The notes below the pieces were generated by a model, which worked only from the letters and a program-made list of their open reading frames with translations, made no database searches and was not told where the DNA came from. A stretch of 64,000 nt of DNA from Pseudolabrys sp. (GTDB lineage Bacteria > Pseudomonadota > Alphaproteobacteria > Rhizobiales > Xanthobacteraceae): NCBI GenBank assembly GCA_030655215.1, contig JAURVZ010000029.1, forward strand, positions 1 through 64,000, written 5' to 3'. Within the stretch, counting starts at the first letter, position 1, and each line of letters opens with the position of its first letter. Made by a program: the position numbers and the translations under genes. Shown here piece by piece: positions 9,026-26,665 of the stretch.

Positions 9026-9285
9026 GAAAGTCTCCGTCACCAAGGGTAATGCCGTCCGGACTACATACAGATACGAACAATGGCGGCAATTGTTCCACCG
9101 GCGGCCTGGCGGGGCAACTATACCTCCGGCCAGCCTCGGCCCGAATGACGTGCGTATTAATGGCGCGAATTCAAGGTTGCCCTTGGCGTCACCGCCGGTT
9201 CTTGCGCTAATGTGACAGGCAATGAACAATGTTCCCGGGGGCGGCTCACAGGGCGCGCGATACCGGGAGTACAGGGGAGACGACC

Positions 9286-10257
9286 ATGGCTCACACCAAT
9301 ACTCTGAGCGGCTTGTGCGCGGCGTTGCTCGTCAGCGCCGCCCTGACCGCCCCGGCAGGCGCGCAGGAATGCCCGCGCGGCCAGCTGGATAAGGCCTATT
9401 GCGACGCCAATGGCGACTTGGTCGCCGACACGCCGGCAGATCAGTCCAAGTGGGTCAATCCGGCGACTTTGGTCTTCGCCTATACCCCGGTCGAGGACCC
9501 TGCCCTCTATTCCAAGGTGTGGGACGGCTTCCTCAAGCATCTCGAAAAAGTGACCGGCAAGAAGGTCGTGTTCTTCCCGGTGCAGTCGAATGCCGCGGAA
9601 ATCGAGACCATGCGCTCCGGCCGCCTGCACATTGCCGGCGTCAGCACCGGCCCGACCCCGATCGCCGTGAATTGCGCCGGCTACGTGCCCTTCGCCATTA
9701 TGGGCACCAATTCCGGCACGTTCGGCTACGAGATGGAAATTATCGTCCCGGCCGACTCAGCCATCAAGGCGCCGGCCGACCTCAAGGGCAAGAAGCTCGC
9801 CTTCACCGCGCCGTCGTCGAACTCCGGCTACAAGGCGCCGTCGGTGCTGCTCGAGTCCGAATTCCAGCTTGTCGCCAAGCGCGACTATGAGCCGGTGTTC
9901 TCCGGCAAGCACGACAACTCGGTGCTCGGCGTCGCCAATAAGGATTACGACGCGGCAGCCATCGCCAACGAAGTCATGGTGCGCATGTTCGAGCGCAAGG
10001 TCGTCGACAAGGCCAAGATCCGCACCATCTACAAGTCGGAGACCTTCCCGACCACCAGTTACGGCATGGCCTACAATCTCGCGCCCGAACTGCAGGCCAA
10101 GATCAAGGAAGCCTTCTTCACCTTCCCGTGGGAAGGCTCTGCCTTGAAGGCCGAGTTCAAGACCGAAGATCGTTTCGTGCCGATCAGCTACCAGAAAGAT
10201 TGGAACGTGGTGCGCAAGATCGATAGCGCGAGCGGCGTCAGCTACGCCTGCAAGTGA
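9286..10257 (+). CDS. phnD: phosphate/phosphite/phosphonate ABC transporter substrate-binding protein (paralog 1)
   Basis: Signal peptide plus PhnD-like core: SKVWDGFLKHLEKVTGKKVVFFPVQSNAAEIETMRSGRLHIAGVSTGP...SSNSGYKAPSVLL. Confidence 0.88.
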   Translation: MAHTNTLSGLCAALLVSAALTAPAGAQECPRGQLDKAYCDANGDLVADTPADQSKWVNPATLVFAYTPVEDPALYSKVWDGFLKHLEKVTGKKVVFFPVQSNAAEIETMRSGRLHIAGVSTGPTPIAVNCAGYVPFAIMGTNSGTFGYEMEIIVPADSAIKAPADLKGKKLAFTAPSSNSGYKAPSVLLESEFQLVAKRDYEPVFSGKHDNSVLGVANKDYDAAAIANEVMVRMFERKVVDKAKIRTIYKSETFPTTSYGMAYNLAPELQAKIKEAFFTFPWEGSALKAEFKTEDRFVPISYQKDWNVVRKIDSASGVSYACK

Positions 10258-10264
10258 GGCGCCG

Positions 10265-11221
10265 ATGAAAAACTTCATCGGAATCCTCGCCGCCACTCTC
10301 GTATTCTCCGGCTCCGCACTGGCTCAGGAAGACTGCCCGCGCGGTCAGCTCGACAAGGCCTATTGCGACCGCAACGGCGATCTCGTCGCCGATGCACCGA
10401 CCGATGTGAAGAAGCTCGTCAATCCGTCGACGCTCGTCTTCTCCTTCACACCGGTTGAAGACCCGGCTGTGTACCAGAAGGCTTGGGACGGCTTCATCAA
10501 GCACATGGAGAAGGTGACCGGTAAGAAGGTCGTGTTCTTCCCGGTGCAGTCGAATGCGGCACAGGTCGAGGCCATGCGCTCTGGCCGTCTGCACGTCGCC
10601 GGCGTCAATGCCGGTGGCAATGCGCTGGCGGTGAACTGCGCCGGCCTTGTGCCGTTCACGATGATGGCGTCGGCTGACAATTCCTTCGGCTACGAGATGG
10701 AAATCATCGTACCGGCAGACTCCGCGATCAGGAAGCCGGAAGACCTGAAGGGTCACAAGATCGGCTTCAGCGATGCCACGTCGAACTCCGGCTACAAGGC
10801 GCCGTCGGCCATCCTGCAGGCCGACTTCAAACTCGAAGCCAAGCGCGATTACGAGCCGCAGTTTTCCGGCAAGCACGACAACACCATCCTCGGCGTCGTC
10901 AATAAAGACTACGAAGCCGGCGCGGTGGCCAACTCGGTGCTCAGCCGCATGATCGAACGCAAGGTCTTCGACCCGGCCAAGATCCGCTCGATCTACAAGT
11001 CACAGACATTCCCGACCACCGGATACGGCTATGCCTACAATCTCGATCCCGTACTGATCGAGAAGATCAAGGAAGCCTTCTTCACCTTCCCGTGGGAAGG
11101 CTCGGGACTCGCCAATGAGTTCAAGAAGGAAGCCAAGTTCATCCCGATCGACTACAAGAAGGACTGGGATGTGTTGCGCAAGATCGACGAAGTCAGCGGC
11201 GTCAAATACACCTGCAAGTAA
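10265..11221 (+). CDS. phnD: phosphate/phosphite/phosphonate ABC transporter substrate-binding protein (paralog 2)
   Basis: Starts 7 bp after paralog 1 stop and aligns with it over nearly the full length. Confidence 0.88.
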   Translation: MKNFIGILAATLVFSGSALAQEDCPRGQLDKAYCDRNGDLVADAPTDVKKLVNPSTLVFSFTPVEDPAVYQKAWDGFIKHMEKVTGKKVVFFPVQSNAAQVEAMRSGRLHVAGVNAGGNALAVNCAGLVPFTMMASADNSFGYEMEIIVPADSAIRKPEDLKGHKIGFSDATSNSGYKAPSAILQADFKLEAKRDYEPQFSGKHDNTILGVVNKDYEAGAVANSVLSRMIERKVFDPAKIRSIYKSQTFPTTGYGYAYNLDPVLIEKIKEAFFTFPWEGSGLANEFKKEAKFIPIDYKKDWDVLRKIDEVSGVKYTCK

Positions 11222-11260
11222 CAAGGCCCTTCTTCAGAGGGGAATGAGGGGCTCAGCTTT

Positions 11261-12106
11261 ATGCTGCGTATCAAGGGACTGACCAAGCGCTATCGCACCG
11301 GCGATCTCGCCCTCAAAGGTATCGATCTCGACGTGCCGGACGGTCAGGTGATGGCGCTGATCGGCCCCTCCGGCGCCGGCAAGTCGACGGTCATCCGCTG
11401 CATCAACCGGCTGGTCGAGCCGACCGCCGGCACGATCGAGCTGAACGACACGGAAATCGTGGCTTTAAGCAGCGGCAATCTGCGCCGCATGCGCCGCCGC
11501 ATGGGCATGATCTTTCAGGAATATGCCTTGGTCGAACGCCTTTCGGTGATGGAGAACGTGCTGTCCGGCCGCCTCGGCTATGTCGGCTTCTGGCAAAGCT
11601 ATTTGCGCAAGTTCCCGCAATCCGACATCGACGAGGCGTTCCGCCTGTTGCAGCGCGTCGGCCTCGATCACATGGCCGACAAGCGCGCTGATGAATTGTC
11701 CGGCGGCCAGCGCCAGCGCGTCGGCATTTGCCGCGCCTTGATCCAGAATCCGGAATTGCTGCTCGTCGATGAACCGACCGCGTCGCTCGACCCGAAGACA
11801 TCGCGGCAAATCATGCGGCTGATCAAGGAGCTGTGCGCCGAACGCAAACTGTCCGCGATCATCAACATTCACGACGTCATGCTGGCGCAGATGTTCGCCG
11901 AGCGCATTGTTGGCCTCAAGCTCGGCGAGATCGTTTATGACGGCCCGCCGGACCAGCTCACGCCGGCGGTGCTGACGCAGATCTACGGGGAGGAAGACTG
12001 GGCCTCGACCATCCGCAAGGCGGATGATGACGAGCCCGAAACTATCGATGAGATCGCACCGGCGACGCCCATCATCGAACGTGATCGCCTCGCAGGCCTG
12101 ACGTGA
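11261..12106 (+). CDS. phnC: phosphonate ABC transporter ATP-binding protein
   Basis: Walker [10 protein letters not shown], signature [12 protein letters not shown], Walker [14 protein letters not shown]; PhnC-like. Confidence 0.92.
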
Positions 12107-12912
12107 GCATCGCCCTCCCCACCGAACGCCGCCGCTGGAAAAAACCGCCGGTCATCAAGCGCGCCTGGCTGCGCTGGACGCTGATCCTCGGCTTCGCCAT
12201 CTATCTGGCGCTTGCCTTCGGCACCATCAGCGTCAACTGGGCCCGCGTCTGGGAAGGCCTGCCACGCGGCATGCAGTTCGTCACCGCGTTCCTGCCGCCG
12301 GACTTCACCAGCCGCTGGGACGAAATCGCGCAAGGCATTGCAGAGAGCCTGTGGATGACGGTCGTCGCCACCGCGGTTGGCATCGCGCTGTCGATCCCGG
12401 TCGGTATTGGCGCTGCGCGCAATATCGCGCCGCTGCCGGTCTATTATTTCTGCCGCTCTATTCTCGCCGTGTCGCGCAGTTTCCAGGAAGTCATCCTGGC
12501 GATCTTCTTCGTCAAGCTGTTCGGCTTCGGTCCCTTTGCCGGCTTCGTCACGCTGGCGTTTGCCACCATCGGCTTTTACGGCAAGCTCCTGGCCGAAGAC
12601 ATCGAGGACATGGATGCCAGCCAGGCGGAAGCCGTGCGCGCCACCGGCTCGAGCTGGCTGCAATGGATCAATTACGGCGTGCAGCCGCAGGTCATGCCGC
12701 GCATGATAGGCCTCGGCCTCTATCGCCTCGACATCAACTTCCGTGAGTCCGCCGTGGTCGGCATTGTCGGCGGCGGCGGCATCGGCGCGACACTGAACAC
12801 CGCCTTCGACCGCTACGAGTTCGACTCGGCCGCCGCGATCATCCTCATCATCATTGCCATCGTCATGTTCACCGAATATTCGTCGGGCTATCTGCGGCGA
12901 TGGGTGCAGTGA
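12103..12912 (+). CDS. phnE: phosphonate ABC transporter permease
   Basis: MetI-like permease, EAA loop ([24 protein letters not shown]), [21 protein letters not shown]. Confidence 0.9.
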
Positions 12913-13727
12913 TGACGGACGCCCTCGCTCTTCCAAAGAAAGCCTGGCAGCGGCGCGACCGCAAGGCGCAGTTCACCGTCTGGCTAGGCTGGCTGATCGG
13001 CACCGCCATCTTTGTCTATTGCTTTCAGAAGATCTCCGAGAACACGATCTGGGCCTTCGTCTGGGACGCACCGACGCAAGCCGCCGATCTCGGCGGCCGT
13101 ATGGTGCCGCCGGCCTGGAGCTACATCAATCAACTATGGCGGCCGATCTGGGATACGCTGAACATCGCCACCATGGGGACGTTGATCTCCATCGTGCTCG
13201 CCGTGCCGATCGCTTATTGCGCCGCACGCAACACGACACCGAGCGTCACCTTCATCCGGCCCATTGCCTTGTTCATCATCGTTGCCTCGCGCTCGATCAA
13301 TTCGTTGATCTGGGCCCTGATGCTGGTGACGATTGTCGGCCCCGGCGTCTTTGCCGGCATTATCGCCATCGGCCTGCGCTCCATCGGCTTCGTCGCAAAA
13401 CTGTTATACGAAGCCATTGAGGAAATCGACGAGTCTCAGGTCGAGGCCATCCGCTCGACCGGCGCCTCCGCCGCGCAAACCACCGCTTATGGCATCGTGC
13501 CGCAGGTTATGCCTGCTTTTGCCGGCATTTCGGTCTTCCGCTGGGACATCAACATCCGCGAGTCCACGGTGCTCGGCCTGGTCGGCGCAGGCGGCATCGG
13601 CCTTGAGCTCAATGCAGCAATTACACAACTGTACTGGACGCAAGTGTCGCTGATGCTATTGGTCATTATCGCGACCGTGATTCTGAGCGAATGGGTCTCG
13701 GCCAAGGTCCGCCACGCGATCATTTGA
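12912..13727 (+). CDS. phnE: phosphonate ABC transporter permease (second)
   Basis: EAIRSTGASAAQTTAYGIVPQVMP...RWDINIRESTVLGLVGAGGIG; start overlaps previous stop. Confidence 0.9.
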   Translation: MTDALALPKKAWQRRDRKAQFTVWLGWLIGTAIFVYCFQKISENTIWAFVWDAPTQAADLGGRMVPPAWSYINQLWRPIWDTLNIATMGTLISIVLAVPIAYCAARNTTPSVTFIRPIALFIIVASRSINSLIWALMLVTIVGPGVFAGIIAIGLRSIGFVAKLLYEAIEEIDESQVEAIRSTGASAAQTTAYGIVPQVMPAFAGISVFRWDINIRESTVLGLVGAGGIGLELNAAITQLYWTQVSLMLLVIIATVILSEWVSAKVRHAII

Positions 13728-15304: not shown

Positions 15305-15349
15305 TGGTAGCGAGGAGTGGACTCGAACCACCGACCTACGGATTATGAT
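15305..15349. repeat. attL: 45-bp duplicate of tRNA-Met 3' end
   Basis: Identical to 26589-26633 by direct comparison; the 5' part of the tRNA is absent here. Confidence 0.92.
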
Positions 15350-17995: not shown

Positions 17996-18853
17996 ATGTC
18001 ACATCGCCCCCGCATTGATGCGTTTCGTAAAGATATAATCAAGCAACTGCCGAGGGCTCCGGCCACGCGAGCCTCGCTCGCCGCCTTGCACGCAATGCCA
18101 ACGCATCTGCTAATTTTGGCTTTTGTGACGTGGCGCATGCGGTTCATACCGGCAAAACCTCGCACAATTAAGATCTGGTCAGGTGGCGTTGCACCCCCCG
18201 AATTTCAAATAGCCAAGCCAAGACTTCGGCCACTGCTGGAAAAGGTTGAGGCGGGAAAAGACCTGACGCCGCATCTCTCAACTCTGGTGCATAAAAAAGG
18301 TATTATTCTCGAAGGTTCCCGCCGGACTGAACGGCGGCAAGATATCGACATGGTGCTGACGCGACACGGTCTGCATCATTTCCATGTAGGCAAAAACAGC
18401 CCGAATAATCCCAAAGGCCGTAGCGACAGTTTAGTGTTCGCCGAAGTGCTTGAGAAGGAGTTTTTGATTGTCGCGGTGGCCGATCATCGCGCGTTCGAAT
18501 ACGGCTCGCCCGAGCATCTTAAGTTTTTCAGCATTTGCAGCGCTTATACAGCGAAAGACGTTCCACCCGGGCAGGCGTTCATTGCTAACCCTGTCATGGC
18601 ATCGGGCCATTCGATGGTCGTGAAGCTATTTTCCGACCGGTGCGACGATGAAATATCGAGGCTTGATCCGCAATTGGATGACCCGGACTTCATTGACAAG
18701 CTCTACAATGAACAACCAATCCTGCGAGACGGATGCCAAATCATCAGGCCCGCGCAGCCGTCGATGGCTTGGTACTTCAATGATCTACAGTTTGGCATCC
18801 TCGACAGGCGAACGATGGTATTCTTTTGCATCTTTCCATTCTTTGCCCGTTAG
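17996..18853 (+). CDS. uncharacterised 285-aa cargo protein of the integrated element
   Basis: Long ORF; HHFHVG...RSDSLVFAEVLEKEFLIVAVADHRAFEYG region with conserved-looking His residues; no confident family. Confidence 0.65.
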   Translation: MSHRPRIDAFRKDIIKQLPRAPATRASLAALHAMPTHLLILAFVTWRMRFIPAKPRTIKIWSGGVAPPEFQIAKPRLRPLLEKVEAGKDLTPHLSTLVHKKGIILEGSRRTERRQDIDMVLTRHGLHHFHVGKNSPNNPKGRSDSLVFAEVLEKEFLIVAVADHRAFEYGSPEHLKFFSICSAYTAKDVPPGQAFIANPVMASGHSMVVKLFSDRCDDEISRLDPQLDDPDFIDKLYNEQPILRDGCQIIRPAQPSMAWYFNDLQFGILDRRTMVFFCIFPFFAR

Positions 18854-18858
18854 ATCGC

Positions 18859-19668
18859 TCACGCTTGCCCCGGCAGCCAGCCGCCAGTCTGATACTCGTT
18901 GCGTTTAATCGACCCATCCTCTTTCACGACATGGACACGCCGAATGCAAATCGTTTCGATATCGGCGATGGCACCATGATCGACTGGCTCGGGCTGATCG
19001 CGCCGTGGCCCAGCGACAATGAACCCGACCGGGAACCAGCGGTGTAACCCGTTGCGCTCGCCGTGCATCAATGCGGGGCCGCCGCTACAGCCGCTTATAT
19101 TGAGCCCGAGAGGTGGTTTCGGCGTGCCACCGAATGCGTTGTCGCGCTGCGGATCATACGTCGTCCAGATATCTTGCTCGGTGAAATCCTCGACCATAGG
19201 CAAGGCGCCATATGCTTGAAAGACAGCAGACTTATCTACGCTCGTGGTACGCCCCAAGTTTGGCAAGCCAGCCCAACTAAGCGCACGGTTTTTCTGCGGC
19301 TCTGGTGGGGGCCAATCGCCCCGGCAGTCAATGGCGAGCCCATCGATCTTTTTCAATTCATCCTCAGAAAGACCGAACGTAGCAATATCGAGATGGTCGT
19401 CACAATCGATAATCGCTTCGTGAAGCCGAAATTCCATCATTCGCAATTGGCAAACGAAGTTCGGGATCGTTTGACGCGCTTCGTCATAGGCCGCAACCAC
19501 ATGCGCTGCAGTGATGCCAACCAGCCTGTCGGGAAATCGCAAAACAAAACAGGATGCGCCGTTGACCGGCTTCGGAAATAAAGCTTTACGATCATGCCAG
19601 CAGAGCGGCGTACACACTTTGAGCGTGAACTGAGCGATCTCGTTGATGAAATCTGGCGGCATCGACAT
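18859..19668 (-). CDS. trypsin-like (S1-fold) serine protease, no evident signal peptide
   Basis: Candidate triad: His in GITAAHVV, Asp in DDHLDIATFGL, Ser in SGCSGGPAL; spacing fits a chymotrypsin fold. Confidence 0.72.
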   Translation of the reverse strand: MSMPPDFINEIAQFTLKVCTPLCWHDRKALFPKPVNGASCFVLRFPDRLVGITAAHVVAAYDEARQTIPNFVCQLRMMEFRLHEAIIDCDDHLDIATFGLSEDELKKIDGLAIDCRGDWPPPEPQKNRALSWAGLPNLGRTTSVDKSAVFQAYGALPMVEDFTEQDIWTTYDPQRDNAFGGTPKPPLGLNISGCSGGPALMHGERNGLHRWFPVGFIVAGPRRDQPEPVDHGAIADIETICIRRVHVVKEDGSIKRNEYQTGGWLPGQA

Positions 19669-20122: not shown

Positions 20123-20953
20123 CTACGCTGCCTCTGCTTTCTTTGCCTTGACGACGACGCCAAGCACGGCCGCCGGGCTGGCATTCGAACGCCGGATCAC
20201 ATCAAGGCCTTGCGATAGAGCAACCTCGATCAACGCTTCCTCAGTTCGCTCCAGCTTGTCGAGTTGGGCCGTTAGCTCACCGGCGCGCTTTTCCTTCTCG
20301 TTCGCTGACAGGGCCAGCTTGGGTTCAGGAAGTGCCTCGATCTCCGCCTCAAGACGCTTGGCCATCGCCTCCGGATGCAGCCACGCCAAGATTGCGACGG
20401 TTCGCGCTGTCGACGTTCCGAACGATTGAGGATCAGCGAACTCGAACTTCACTTCGCCGTTTCGTTCGATGGACACTATTGGCTTACCCTGTCGCTCAAG
20501 CTCGCGCGCATGCGCGCGGGCCTTGGCTTTGAGATCGCCTTTCGGGAGCGGTGCGGTCATCACCGCTCTCAAATGCTGCTGCGCGGCCGTGATCTCATCG
20601 CGCGTGCGTGAGATTGCGCCCGCGAGCGTTTCGTTCTTGAGCGGTTCAGCAATGACGGCCTTTGCCATTACCAGCGAAACATTGCGCGATAGGGATTGCA
20701 GCCAGCGGTCGATCTGAGCACCTAGCGCCGCGAACTCGACCTGGCGCTGGTTCTGCCGCTCTTTCACGGCTTGAAGCCGAGCAATTTCGTGCTCGATGTT
20801 CGGAGCGTCCTGCGGTGTCTTGCCCTCGTATTCCAGCGACTTGCGCAGGTCGATCAGGCGGCGCTGTGCGGATGCACTGGCATCGCGCGCATCCGATGCG
20901 CCCCCTTTGACGGCGTTGAGCTTGGCGCTAGCTTCTGCTGGTAGGAAACTCAT
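20123..20953 (-). CDS. uncharacterised coiled-coil-rich protein in terminase operon
   Basis: MSFLPAEASAKLNAVKGGASDARDASASAQRRLIDLRKSLEYEGK...; E/K/R/A-rich helices; start ATG 20953 overlaps upstream gene end. Confidence 0.65.
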   Translation of the reverse strand: MSFLPAEASAKLNAVKGGASDARDASASAQRRLIDLRKSLEYEGKTPQDAPNIEHEIARLQAVKERQNQRQVEFAALGAQIDRWLQSLSRNVSLVMAKAVIAEPLKNETLAGAISRTRDEITAAQQHLRAVMTAPLPKGDLKAKARAHARELERQGKPIVSIERNGEVKFEFADPQSFGTSTARTVAILAWLHPEAMAKRLEAEIEALPEPKLALSANEKEKRAGELTAQLDKLERTEEALIEVALSQGLDVIRRSNASPAAVLGVVVKAKKAEAA

Positions 20954-21294
20954 GCCGCCCTCCATCGCTCGCTCATACGCTTATCGTAGGAGCCATAGGC
21001 CGCATCCGTGGTGGCGGCCGTTCTTTGCGGGGGCTTGCCGTCTGCCGCGATAACGATCGCTGAAGCATTTTTCCAGCGAGCCGAGATGGCCGCGTCGGCT
21101 TTGTCGTACAGCGCGCCGCGCTGCTCTCGCTGTTCGTCGGTTTGAGGTAGCGGGCCGGGGCGATGGCCTGCCATATCGAATACCGGCGCCGCGTTGGCAG
21201 CAATCGCCCGTTGCGCGTCGGTCATGAAATGCATCGCCACTCTGACCACCTCGCCATCCTTGGCGATCATGTCGTCATCAATTTGAGTTCTCAT
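20950..21294 (-). CDS. uncharacterised ~114-aa protein in terminase operon
   Basis: MRTQIDDDMIAKDGEVVRVAMHFMTDAQRAIAANAAPVFD...; strong RBS GGAGG upstream of tandem ATGs (21294/21297). Confidence 0.65.
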   Translation of the reverse strand: MRTQIDDDMIAKDGEVVRVAMHFMTDAQRAIAANAAPVFDMAGHRPGPLPQTDEQREQRGALYDKADAAISARWKNASAIVIAADGKPPQRTAATTDAAYGSYDKRMSERWRAA

Positions 21295-21326
21295 CATATC
21301 CTCCGTGTGGTGTTGAAAAGGGCTGC

Positions 21327-22823
21327 TCATCCGCTGAAGCCTCCCGAGCGGATGTGCCGTTGCAGGCGGCCGGAATGCCAATTGGCTTGGTCGCCAACAA
21401 AGAAGTTGCGAACGTCGTATGCGCTCTTGTGCCCGACAATCGACGTCATGACGCCCGCGACTACGTTGGCGAGATCATCATGGGCACCGGGCGCATGATC
21501 GATTGAGTCTTTGCCGCCCCTCGCTGTGCGGCGCTCCAACCCGATGAGCTGGGTTCGGATGCGCTCGATATCGAGCAGTTCGACCTTGCGAGAATTGATA
21601 GCAGGCAGGAGATCGCGGTAGAGATCGCTCTTAGGCTTAGCTGCAGGTTCATAGGTGATGCCGTGAACCTTGAAACGCTCTCGGGGCCATTCACCAGCGT
21701 AGCGATCCCCGCAAACCTTGTTGATGCGGTAGCTCTTGAGCAGCAGCGCGAACTCGGCGACCACAGCCTCCGGCGAGAATGGTGGTTTGCGCTCTCGAAC
21801 CGCGTCTAGGATCGCCACGTCTTTCTCGGCGTGAGCGATGGCGAGTGTCATCGAGTCCGCGCTGCCGCCGCTTGGATCGACAAAGGCAACATACTTGACG
21901 CCTGCCATGCGAGGCCGCTCAAGCATGCCGGGCGTGACGCAAGCCTCGACTGCCTCTCGCGCGATCAGGGCTTCAATGTCGCTGCGGAACTGTGCCCCGT
22001 ACTCTGCGGCGGCGCTAGATGGATCGCGTTCGAACGCCTCATCAATCACAGACTGCGGCACGCTCGGGTTCATGTCGCGAGTGCTCGCCTGCCAGACTAA
22101 GACCGGATCGTGGTCTTTACCGTAGTGTTTGCGGTGTGCAGTCCACAAGGCGCCACGTCTCGCATATGGACTTGAGGCGCAAAGCAGCATCGCGTTTGGA
22201 ATTGTCGCCATGCCCGGTCTGATTGCGGCGAGAACTTCCGCATCCGGCTCGGACGAGTCTTCATCTGCCCAAAAGGCCAACTCATCGCAGAGCGCGGCCA
22301 CGATCGTGTAGCCTCGGGTGGAGCGGAAGGATGCGGTGCCGACTTCGATGGTGACATGGTTGGATAGATCGAACGCCTCGGCAGTCTCACGCCTCACCAT
22401 GCTGGCTAGCATCGGAACTTGAGTTAGCAAGGCGCGGATATATCGCAGGATCACACGCGCCTGCTTTCGATCTGTCGCGATCACCAAGACTGTGCCGCGC
22501 TCGCCGGGAGCCAGGTACTGGCGGAAATCATGGAAGCAGGCGAGGAAGACTGCCACGAGTGCGAGGATGAAAGACTTACCCGCTCGCCTGCCACACACCA
22601 GCCAAGCTTCGCTGGCCACGGATGAAGGCGGTTCACTTCGGCCTGTGCAGCGCTGATAGATTTCCCGCTCTTGAGCGGACATGGGCACTGCGAACAAGGC
22701 TGCGAGGAATGCAAACCACGCCGCCCATGTGGTTCGATCTTTGAACCATGGTCCGAATAAGTGCGGGTCTCTGATAGCATCAAGGATGCTGGCGCTTGGT
22801 TCGCTGATGCGAACGCGCTTCAT
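21327..22823 (-). CDS. phage terminase large subunit (TerL)
   Basis: Walker A-like CGRRAGKS, Walker B TIVAALCDELAFW, nuclease acidic motifs FVDPSGG, VCGDRYAGEW, HDDLANVVAG. Confidence 0.9.
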   Translation of the reverse strand: MKRVRISEPSASILDAIRDPHLFGPWFKDRTTWAAWFAFLAALFAVPMSAQEREIYQRCTGRSEPPSSVASEAWLVCGRRAGKSFILALVAVFLACFHDFRQYLAPGERGTVLVIATDRKQARVILRYIRALLTQVPMLASMVRRETAEAFDLSNHVTIEVGTASFRSTRGYTIVAALCDELAFWADEDSSEPDAEVLAAIRPGMATIPNAMLLCASSPYARRGALWTAHRKHYGKDHDPVLVWQASTRDMNPSVPQSVIDEAFERDPSSAAAEYGAQFRSDIEALIAREAVEACVTPGMLERPRMAGVKYVAFVDPSGGSADSMTLAIAHAEKDVAILDAVRERKPPFSPEAVVAEFALLLKSYRINKVCGDRYAGEWPRERFKVHGITYEPAAKPKSDLYRDLLPAINSRKVELLDIERIRTQLIGLERRTARGGKDSIDHAPGAHDDLANVVAGVMTSIVGHKSAYDVRNFFVGDQANWHSGRLQRHIRSGGFSG

Positions 22824-23224
22824 CCATCGGCCTCCGTATGGCGGCTATCTGATTTTCTGCGCAGGTAGTCGGCAAGCGGTGTTATGTCGCGCGCCACCCG
22901 CTTCAAACCCAGCGTGACAAGTACCCGGCGCTGCGCATTGACCGCGACCATGTATTCATCGACAGCGATGCCCTCGCCTTTTAGCCATCGCGTCTCAAAA
23001 TCTTCTACGAATGCGCCGAGAACCGCGGCGCGCTGGACCAATTGCCTGCAAGCAACACTGACCTCGGTCGGGCCGCCAAGGTCTTCGATCAAACCGCTTA
23101 CGAGATCGCGGGTGCGCCTAGCGGCAGCAGTGCGGCCATCAAGATCATCTAGGGTACGAAGTCTTGCCTTACCGCGATCCCGAGGCAATTTTGTCGGCGC
23201 ATCTATGGCTATTCGCTCTCGCAT
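22820..23224 (-). CDS. putative terminase small subunit
   Basis: Immediately upstream of and overlapping terL by 4 bp; ~134-aa helical protein. Start at ATG 23224 preferred over 23296 because a perfect palindrome occupies 23275-23289. Confidence 0.55.
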   Translation of the reverse strand: MRERIAIDAPTKLPRDRGKARLRTLDDLDGRTAAARRTRDLVSGLIEDLGGPTEVSVACRQLVQRAAVLGAFVEDFETRWLKGEGIAVDEYMVAVNAQRRVLVTLGLKRVARDITPLADYLRRKSDSRHTEADG

Positions 23225-24391: not shown

Positions 24392-25585
24392 CTATTCGCC
24401 TGCCTCTGCGAGTGATTTGCGGACACCCATCACTGATCCATGCCAGCGACGCCAGTTTTGAAAAGCCATCTCAGCGTCCTCGGTATTCTGAAATTCAGTT
24501 CCTCTCGCTGCCATCATCTCCACGAACCTGCGCTCCTCTAGCAGTTCACGAAGCTCTTCCCGGCGGTTTTCGCGATCGTCAGGCGAGAAGAGTCTTTTGG
24601 CTAACCTCTCATGATGCTGACCAACATCATCGCGACTAGAGGCCTCAGCATGGTCGTTTAATTCTATTCGAACGCGGCGCAACGAGCGCTTCGCCTTCGG
24701 CTTGCTGACCTTCATGTTTTTGAGGACAGCGAGGTTTATTTTATTGTCGCCTCGGGGCCAGTGCCACAAAAACTGGCCGCCATGCTCGTCGAACCAATCG
24801 GAGACGGCATCTAGTGCAAGCCGCAATCTGGCCGCTCGATTATGATGGTTCAGACCGATCTTGCGACACAGCGGCCGTATCTGCCGATGCCATACGTCCC
24901 CGCCATCTCTTTCCGAGTAGGTAGTGAGAACGGCAAGAGCCAGGTTTTGTGCGACGGCGTCCCGAGGTAGAGGCAAGGGAGCTTGTGCAAAATATCGCTG
25001 TCCAAACTCTCGCCATTCATCTGTTATTGAAATTCGGATACGGCCTTCGCCGGTATCAAGTGTTTCAATTGGTGGCGACAGGAGTTTTTTCTCCCGTTTT
25101 CCAATCTGATTTATGCTGTAGTCTTTTCGTCGACCCTTGCGGTAGTCGCTAAACACTTCGCCGGTATCGTTGTCGATATAGCGAGACTTGACAGGCACAT
25201 ACCATTTTTCGAACCAGATCATCAGCATCGACCAGAGGTGCAGCGAGTTCTTTAGCTTTTGCCGGTGACGCGGTGTGACGCTGTAGTCGAGCATCTTGAG
25301 TGCTGCCGCGTAGGATGGAAATTGAATTTCATTACTGTCTCTCCGCTTCGCTTCACTTAGGAGCAGGACGAGCACGTTGACATCAAATGCCGTGGGCCAT
25401 CGCAGCAGTCTTTTTGGGGTGTGTTCGGGCAATCGATATTGCAGGCTGCGATCACCCGGCAGATCAAGAAGCCAAACTCCGGTCTTCTCAGACCTGCGCC
25501 AATCGATTTCCAGCCTCGCATCTCGCGCCATCGGAAAATTGCAAAAATTTCTATTGATGGGGGCAAACCGGCCTTTATCAGTCAT
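24392..25585 (-). CDS. Rep-like replication initiation protein
   Basis: Plasmid RepA-like: LEIDWRRSEKTGVWLLDLPGDRSLQYRLPEHTPKRLLRWPTAFDVNVLVLLLSEAKRR...YRKGRRKDYSINQIGKREKKLLSPPIETLDTGEGRIRISITDEWREFG. Confidence 0.7.
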   Translation of the reverse strand: MTDKGRFAPINRNFCNFPMARDARLEIDWRRSEKTGVWLLDLPGDRSLQYRLPEHTPKRLLRWPTAFDVNVLVLLLSEAKRRDSNEIQFPSYAAALKMLDYSVTPRHRQKLKNSLHLWSMLMIWFEKWYVPVKSRYIDNDTGEVFSDYRKGRRKDYSINQIGKREKKLLSPPIETLDTGEGRIRISITDEWREFGQRYFAQAPLPLPRDAVAQNLALAVLTTYSERDGGDVWHRQIRPLCRKIGLNHHNRAARLRLALDAVSDWFDEHGGQFLWHWPRGDNKINLAVLKNMKVSKPKAKRSLRRVRIELNDHAEASSRDDVGQHHERLAKRLFSPDDRENRREELRELLEERRFVEMMAARGTEFQNTEDAEMAFQNWRRWHGSVMGVRKSLAEAGE

Positions 25586-26012: not shown

Positions 26013-26459
26013 TTATCTAGATTTGCCGGACCCTCTCAGTATCGAAGACTCCATGTGCCGCTTTATGGTGGACTCTTTCCAAGAGACGCCGACAGCTTCA
26101 AGCCAGTCCATGGCTTCTTTGGCCGCTTGGTCTTCCGCGCTCATTTCAGGGCTATCTCTGTTCACCCCAGTCGCCTTCCGCCCGGCTGCAATCAATTCGG
26201 CTTTGCGCTCGCATGCGATGTTGATGGCGGCGTACTTCAATATGTCGTTCACGGCGCTGTTCGGTCGTTTCTTACGTTCGAACAATTTGAGGAGGCTTCT
26301 AGCAATATCGAGCGGCAACTTAACCGATTGCGCCTCTCCCGCCGTCGCGGATGCTACTTCTAAATAGTCGAGGGCTTGAGCGGGTCCGAGCCCCTCAAGA
26401 AAATCCTCAAGCGTCTCGCCCAGCAATTCGACCAGAACTTTGTCGCGTTCATGTTGCAT
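26013..26459 (-). CDS. hypothetical protein, first gene at the tRNA-proximal end of the element
   Basis: MQHERDKVLVELLGETLEDFLEGLGPAQALDYLEVAS...; 5' end uncertain (26459, 26516 or TTG 26522). Confidence 0.5.
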   Translation of the reverse strand: MQHERDKVLVELLGETLEDFLEGLGPAQALDYLEVASATAGEAQSVKLPLDIARSLLKLFERKKRPNSAVNDILKYAAINIACERKAELIAAGRKATGVNRDSPEMSAEDQAAKEAMDWLEAVGVSWKESTIKRHMESSILRGSGKSR

Positions 26460-26588
26460 GGACACAGCGCTACGTTCTGTAAGCCATTGAAAACATGAAG
26501 GATCATATTGCAACATGTGCAACAGAGATAGACGCCAAATCGAAAGGCGATTAACAGAGATTATTCAATGTTATCAGGGAATTAGTGT

Positions 26589-26665
26589 TGGTAGCGAGGA
26601 GTGGACTCGAACCACCGACCTACGGATTATGATTCCGCCGCTCTAACCAGCTGAGCTACCCCGCC
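26589..26665 (-). tRNA. tRNA-Met (CAU), elongator type; integration target, CCA encoded
   Basis: Reverse complement GGCGGGGTAGCTCAGCTGGTTAGAGCGGCGGAATCATAATCCGTAGGTCGGTGGTTCGAGTCCACTCCTCGCTACCA folds as a cloverleaf with CAT anticodon; 7-bp acceptor stem contains two G-U pairs. Confidence 0.92.

Follow-up and report, generated by a model that had tools for sequence, protein, structure and literature searches.

The phage satellites compared here either borrow the packaging motor of a helper phage or bring motor, portal and shell together. By the definition in PMC13376191, a phage satellite is a discrete integrative element of 7-20 kb with att repeats, an integrase and a regulator, and without virion genes. 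The cf-PICIs encode a major capsid protein, protease, portal, connectors and both terminase subunits (PMC10690885). Gram-negative PICIs have AlpA and sometimes terS, or cos sites that are recognised by the terminase of the helper (PMC6092414). PICMIs are integrated at fis, and a homologue of terS has not been identified in them (PMC10803314). The DNA of P4 is packaged by the P2 terminase, and the MulchRoom/MiniFlayer satellites of Streptomyces encode a small and a large terminase subunit, portal and capsid and lack primases (PMC10690885). VEIMEs and tycheposons are named as marine satellite groups (PMC11389934).

The element analyzed here lies in a stretch of 64,000 nucleotides (the window) from a draft alphaproteobacterial genome (3.64 Mb, 93 contigs, 80% complete). 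Set against the published descriptions, its gene set appears to fit none of the cf-PICIs, the Gram-negative PICIs or the PICMIs. It is like a cf-PICI in being a small integrative satellite with both terminase subunits, but the major capsid protein, protease, portal and connectors of the cf-PICIs are not recognised in it. It shares with classic Gram-negative PICIs an integrase, accessory and anti-phage genes and the lack of capsid genes, and a weak match makes one of its ORFs a candidate AlpA-like regulator; however, those islands use the TerL of the helper through terS or cos, whereas this element has its own intact terL together with TerS. PICMIs are also very small and without capsid genes, but they occupy the fis site and have no terS, while this element is in tRNA-Met and has both terS and terL. 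Dependence on a helper would be common to P4, PLE and this element, which differs from P4 in encoding its own terminase and not using that of P2. PLE is not known to carry terL. MulchRoom/MiniFlayer share both terminase subunits with the element, but their portal and capsid are not recognised in it. An earlier note on this DNA set the element apart from classic PICIs, which have terS alone or cos, and from capsid-forming satellites; this agrees with PMC10690885 and PMC6092414.

The mobile element

The terminase operon (20123-23224) sits inside an 11.3-kb mobile element with perfect 45-bp repeats at both ends (Table 1). The integrase gene is located directly inside the left repeat, and the G+C content of the element is 56% vs 62% in the flanks. 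Size, repeats, integrase, a weakly matching AlpA-like ORF and the lack of recognised structural genes agree with the general gene content of phage satellites. In genomes of the same genus the right flank and tRNA are matched, and there is no clean empty site with both flanks together. The whole element as a query has no near match among plasmids. Pfam, PHROG and NCBIfam scans recognise no conjugation genes in the element, and a repeat search around terS and the element ends gives no convincing packaging site.

Table 1. Features of the element, from its left to its right end
Feature	Position	Strand	Basis
attL-like direct repeat, 45 bp, left end	15305..15349	.	identical to 26589-26633
Tyrosine integrase, 404 aa	15464..16678	+	PF00589 2.4e-16; phrog_1 1.2e-66
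93-aa ORF with only a weak resemblance to a helix-turn-helix	16734..17015	-	PF13518 E 0.099, below cut-off
285-aa ORF, possible cargo	17996..18853	+	no Pfam/NCBIfam match; PHROG only above E 0.1
269-aa ORF, possible cargo	18859..19668	-	unmatched in Pfam, PHROG and NCBIfam
Fourth operon gene, 276 aa (280 aa from upstream ATG at 20965)	20123..20953	-	13-locus family
Third operon gene, 126 aa	20950..21330	-	family HMM vs L083 DUF2213 protein
TerL, 498 aa, ATPase and nuclease residues intact	21327..22823	-	PHROG match, profile match, conservation
TerS (putative), 134 aa, 4-bp overlap with terL	22820..23224	-	position, conservation, fold match
397-aa ORF, putative replication initiator	24392..25585	-	position only; unmatched in family libraries and PDB
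AlpA-like helix-turn-helix regulator or excisionase, 66 aa	25750..25950	-	HTH_17 (PF12728), weak, E 0.0048, below Pfam cut-off
169-aa ORF	26013..26522	-	no significant match
attR-like direct repeat, 45 bp, right end	26589..26633	.	3' part of tRNA-Met gene
tRNA-Met (CAT) gene, integration site	26589..26665	-	ARAGORN

The 397-aa ORF occupies a slot that in many relatives holds a primase, helicase or other replication-type gene. From its position it is probably a replication initiator; there is no similarity to plasmid Rep or to the genes of two relatives. Nine ORFs among the elements of the same clade as the window's match phrog_66 (excisionase and transcriptional regulator).

The earlier note had claimed that capsid and portal genes are missing and had raised the possibility of structural genes elsewhere in the element; none is recognised at the sensitivity of Pfam and PHROG. 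The main ORFs of the element, searched singly against these libraries with E values up to 1 (some ORFs against one of the two only), give no portal, capsid or tail match of weight. A six-frame search of the genome with HK97-type portal and capsid families has matches on contig C93 only and none in the element. The portal, capsid and tail genes of a complete tailed prophage are thus not recognised in the element.

The terminase operon

The operon has four genes on the minus strand, which encode TerS, TerL, a 126-aa protein and a 276-aa protein. All three junctions are 4-bp ATGA overlaps, and a G-rich, ribosome-site-like sequence is found just upstream of each. The operon is where the earlier note had placed a terminase module, and the overlaps at every junction bear out its claim of two more genes tightly coupled after terL. 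The 4-bp overlap that it had seen between the putative TerS and TerL is confirmed and is common to 71 of 102 relatives.

TerL contains the motifs GRRAGKS (residues 78-84), LCDELAFW with D180 and E181, and ASSP (216-219), followed by the nuclease motifs FVDPSGG (D316), GDRYAGEW (D373) and HDDLAN (D449/D450). Among 156 full-length relatives there is no variation at D316, D373 or E181, the Walker B glutamate, and K83, D449 and D450 are each missing in one gapped row only. Position 180 is D in 151 of these relatives and E in 5. PHROG terminase families are matched (phrog_2, 6.9e-21). Used as a profile, TerL also matches T4 gp17 and HK97 TerL in their ATPase domains and chain 5tge in its nuclease domain. 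In a simple Nei-Gojobori count on pairs of relatives, in which some dS values are saturated and the closest relative of the window's TerL is only ~68% identical to it, dN/dS is ~0.02-0.15 for TerL, ~0.07-0.27 for TerS and ~0.11-0.17 for the fourth gene. The near-invariant catalytic residues and the low dN/dS of TerL indicate that terL is kept by selection in the relatives and is not decaying. The earlier claim of an intact ATPase and nuclease therefore holds, as the motifs it quoted are present and the catalytic residues are conserved almost without exception. Annotated phage records contain no TerL relative above ~27% identity. Searched as a single protein against uncultivated viral contigs TerL finds nothing; the TerL alignment as a query finds relatives there, some near portal genes.

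The 134-aa protein is assigned as TerS with good but not complete confidence from its position, its conservation and a modest match of its predicted fold. The start is the ATG at 23224, and a longer ORF that starts with TTG extends to 23296. It has no sequence-family match and no near tblastn match in phages. The family is present in 103 loci, mostly just upstream of TerL. Structure prediction, which the earlier note had proposed as a check, gives a model with a pLDDT of 89. The five best BFVD matches of this model are all named terminase small subunit, with a probability of 0.96-1.00, a TM of 0.46-0.52 by query length and E-values of only 0.1-0.3. In the PDB, the model aligns with small helical proteins whose functions are unrelated (best Z 9.2), so the fold pointer to TerS comes from the BFVD list and not from the PDB.

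The third gene starts at an ATG that overlaps the TerL stop, and has an ATGA overlap at both ends. Its family HMM matches a DUF2213 protein in the same slot of element L083 (1.6e-13); the match covers the C-terminal tail and a segment of the protease domain. The gene product is thus similar to a portion of this head-protease protein, apparently with most of the protease missing. The 276-aa form of the fourth gene starts at the ATG that overlaps the stop of the third. This gene is found solely in the clade of the window's element, where it is conserved. Two unrelated protein families occupy the slot after terL, one or the other depending on the clade; families c16, c172 and c261 in this slot are related to one another and have no detectable kinship to the window's family, c13. 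The model of the fourth protein (pLDDT 87) consists of long helices or a helical hairpin followed by a small mixed domain. It has no BFVD match below an E of 0.001, and the 280-aa protein has no near tblastn match in phages. A function was also sought from the fold; the only matches are to coiled-coil and membrane proteins with middling Z, and none is claimed.

Relatives of the element

The terS-terL element is not a one-off but belongs to a large family. A TerL match occurs in 31 of 296 genomes of the host family, a few of them partial or weak, and in 6 of 385 genomes across the class in a search that scored only four candidates per genome. A GTDB scan gives 176 TerL relatives, and the 80 that were kept are mostly from Alphaproteobacteria, with some from Gammaproteobacteria and from MAGs of other phyla. 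Including the window's, 34 elements were delimited, with sizes of 9.3-18.3 kb (median 12.7 kb). By hand count, 29 of the 34 are bounded by repeats of at least 39 bp, nearly all at tRNA ends, and the tRNA genes used cover at least ten isotypes. The other five (L042, L054, L065, L095, L111) rest on shorter repeats. The earlier note had asked whether the TerL relatives occur only in decayed prophages; they are full-length, catalytically intact and under purifying selection, and lie in compact elements with precise att repeats.

The TerL of the window falls in a clade of 15 rows (support 99) made up of Nitrobacteraceae and Beijerinckiaceae elements. Large viral contigs with a related TerL, some of which have portals, are placed elsewhere in the tree. 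Ten further elements of the clade have a gene set similar to that of the window's element and range with it over 11.3-12.8 kb, nearly all with long exact att repeats. The cargo of the clade includes Thoeris ThsA and ThsB, a CBASS cyclase with a 2TM effector, methyltransferases and restriction enzymes.

The 132 ORFs of these eleven elements were tallied by family. The top 25 of 74 families and the top 25 of 58 in the PHROG and Pfam tallies include a single DUF2213 'head maturation protease' (L083); portal, capsid and tail families are absent from them. Since the tallies give the top 25 families only and could hide weak single hits in the relatives, ten ORFs chosen among the largest were also scanned singly, and all ORFs of the 34 elements were compared with profiles of structural families from this set. 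With these same-family profiles no portal is recognised in any of the 34 elements, and there is none among the tallied families listed. One of the 34, L040, has a capsid gene together with its protease. Tape measure genes occur in L040, L042, L054, L056, L060, L066 and L107 and also in L070, DUF2213 genes in L042, L083 and L107, and tail-fibre-type genes in L111 and L113. About a dozen of the 34 elements have a tail gene or head protease. The earlier description of terS and terL without other structural genes therefore stands for the window's element and has to be modified for the family, in which some members add one or a few structural genes. As many relatives across Proteobacteria share this pattern, there may be a widespread type of phage parasite which supplies its own motor and uses the empty shells of another phage.

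Several of the relatives have features of their own. L040 is a 16-kb element in a branch neighbouring the window's clade and has an HK97-type capsid and a prohead protease, with no recognised portal. L042, L054, L056, L060, L066, L070 and L107 are satellite-sized and contain a tape measure gene, with no recognised portal or capsid. L034 and L035 are plasmid records of Komagataeibacter nataicola with a related TerS-TerL and DUF2213. Each consists of a 15.2-kb unit repeated head to tail (1.7 and 2 copies, >99% identical), and they may be extrachromosomal concatemers or unresolved assemblies. L036, a small 9.7-kb plasmid of Roseomonas, has genes for a serine recombinase and TerS, and its TerL is cut down to 169 aa.

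Proposed packaging and alternative explanations

The element is likely to be a helper-dependent phage satellite which carries a complete two-subunit terminase and packages itself into heads made by its helper. The att repeats and integrase, the conserved catalytic residues and low dN/dS of the terminase, the coupling of the four genes, the TerS fold match, the delimited relatives without a recognised portal and the anti-phage cargo of the clade, a habit of satellites, speak for this reading. Upon infection or induction by a helper phage, the AlpA-like regulator and the integrase would excise the element, and the element would replicate. TerS would bind a packaging site on the satellite DNA. 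The TerS-TerL complex would then dock on the portal of procapsids made by the helper, pump the satellite DNA in and cut it, and the tails of the helper would complete the particle. The products of the third and fourth genes probably adapt the head of the helper, through prohead engagement or head size, because the third is similar to a portion of a DUF2213 protein and two unrelated families alternate between clades in the slot after terL. The unusual packaging strategy proposed in the earlier note is supported as a reading, in which packaging itself is what we infer from the sequence.

TerL genes from the wider family also occur in large viral contigs with portal genes, and incomplete prophages are common in Hyphomicrobiales (PMC11080155), so the element could be what is left of a tailed prophage after the loss of its structural genes, with the terminase genes kept by chance. 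This explanation is very unlikely and is largely refuted by the ten clade elements of similar gene set and narrow size range, nearly all with long exact att repeats, and by terL, terS and the fourth gene being under purifying selection with the ATGA coupling retained. In addition, the incomplete prophages surveyed in PMC11080155 preferentially lose their terminase genes. The terminase may instead be mainly a weapon, in which TerS-TerL competes with or disrupts the packaging of an invading phage and does not package the element. Satellites are known to interfere with the packaging of their helpers (PMC10690885), and the clade elements carry anti-phage systems; however, the ATPase and nuclease centres are both conserved, which fits real packaging, and a mobile element with no recognised conjugation gene needs a way to move. 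The weapon explanation is therefore unlikely.

A further alternative, also highly improbable, is a tiny self-sufficient virus or capsid-forming satellite with very divergent head genes of its own, for example among the ORFs of 269, 285, 397 and 276 aa. Several of the ORFs have no family match, and an element of a neighbouring branch, L040, does have an HK97 capsid and its protease. However, the fourth gene models as long helices and a small mixed domain with no significant BFVD match, and the 269-, 285- and 397-aa ORFs are outside the multi-locus clusters, unlike a core virion gene.

It is possible, though somewhat doubtful, that the family is a separate and long-lived class of satellites, in which a portable complete motor docks on the portals of helpers that do not share the terminase. 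As a similarly tentative part of this class reading, the coupled downstream proteins may serve as adaptors, and some members may add a single tail or head gene which remodels the helper particle. Elements that bring only the motor would, if true, suggest that TerS-TerL works with a foreign portal, which bears on the specificity of the contact between motor and portal. Also, if true, some "incomplete prophages" of Hyphomicrobiales and their kin may be intact satellites that move anti-phage defence genes between bacteria.

At 80% completeness, the resident genome shows a single HK97-type portal and capsid, which lie together in a head cluster on contig C93. The TerL of this cluster is 26% identical to that of the element over part of its length (E 5e-4). 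The two resident TerLs, on contigs C93 (L198) and C76 (L199) of genome G000, are 60% identical to each other. Close to the C93 gene are portal, protease and capsid genes, which may belong to a gene transfer agent or a prophage head cluster, and the C76 gene looks like an orphan. Outside the element, the window also has two adjacent, similar periplasmic-binding-type ORFs, with an ABC ATPase and two permease-like ORFs after them (9229-13727).
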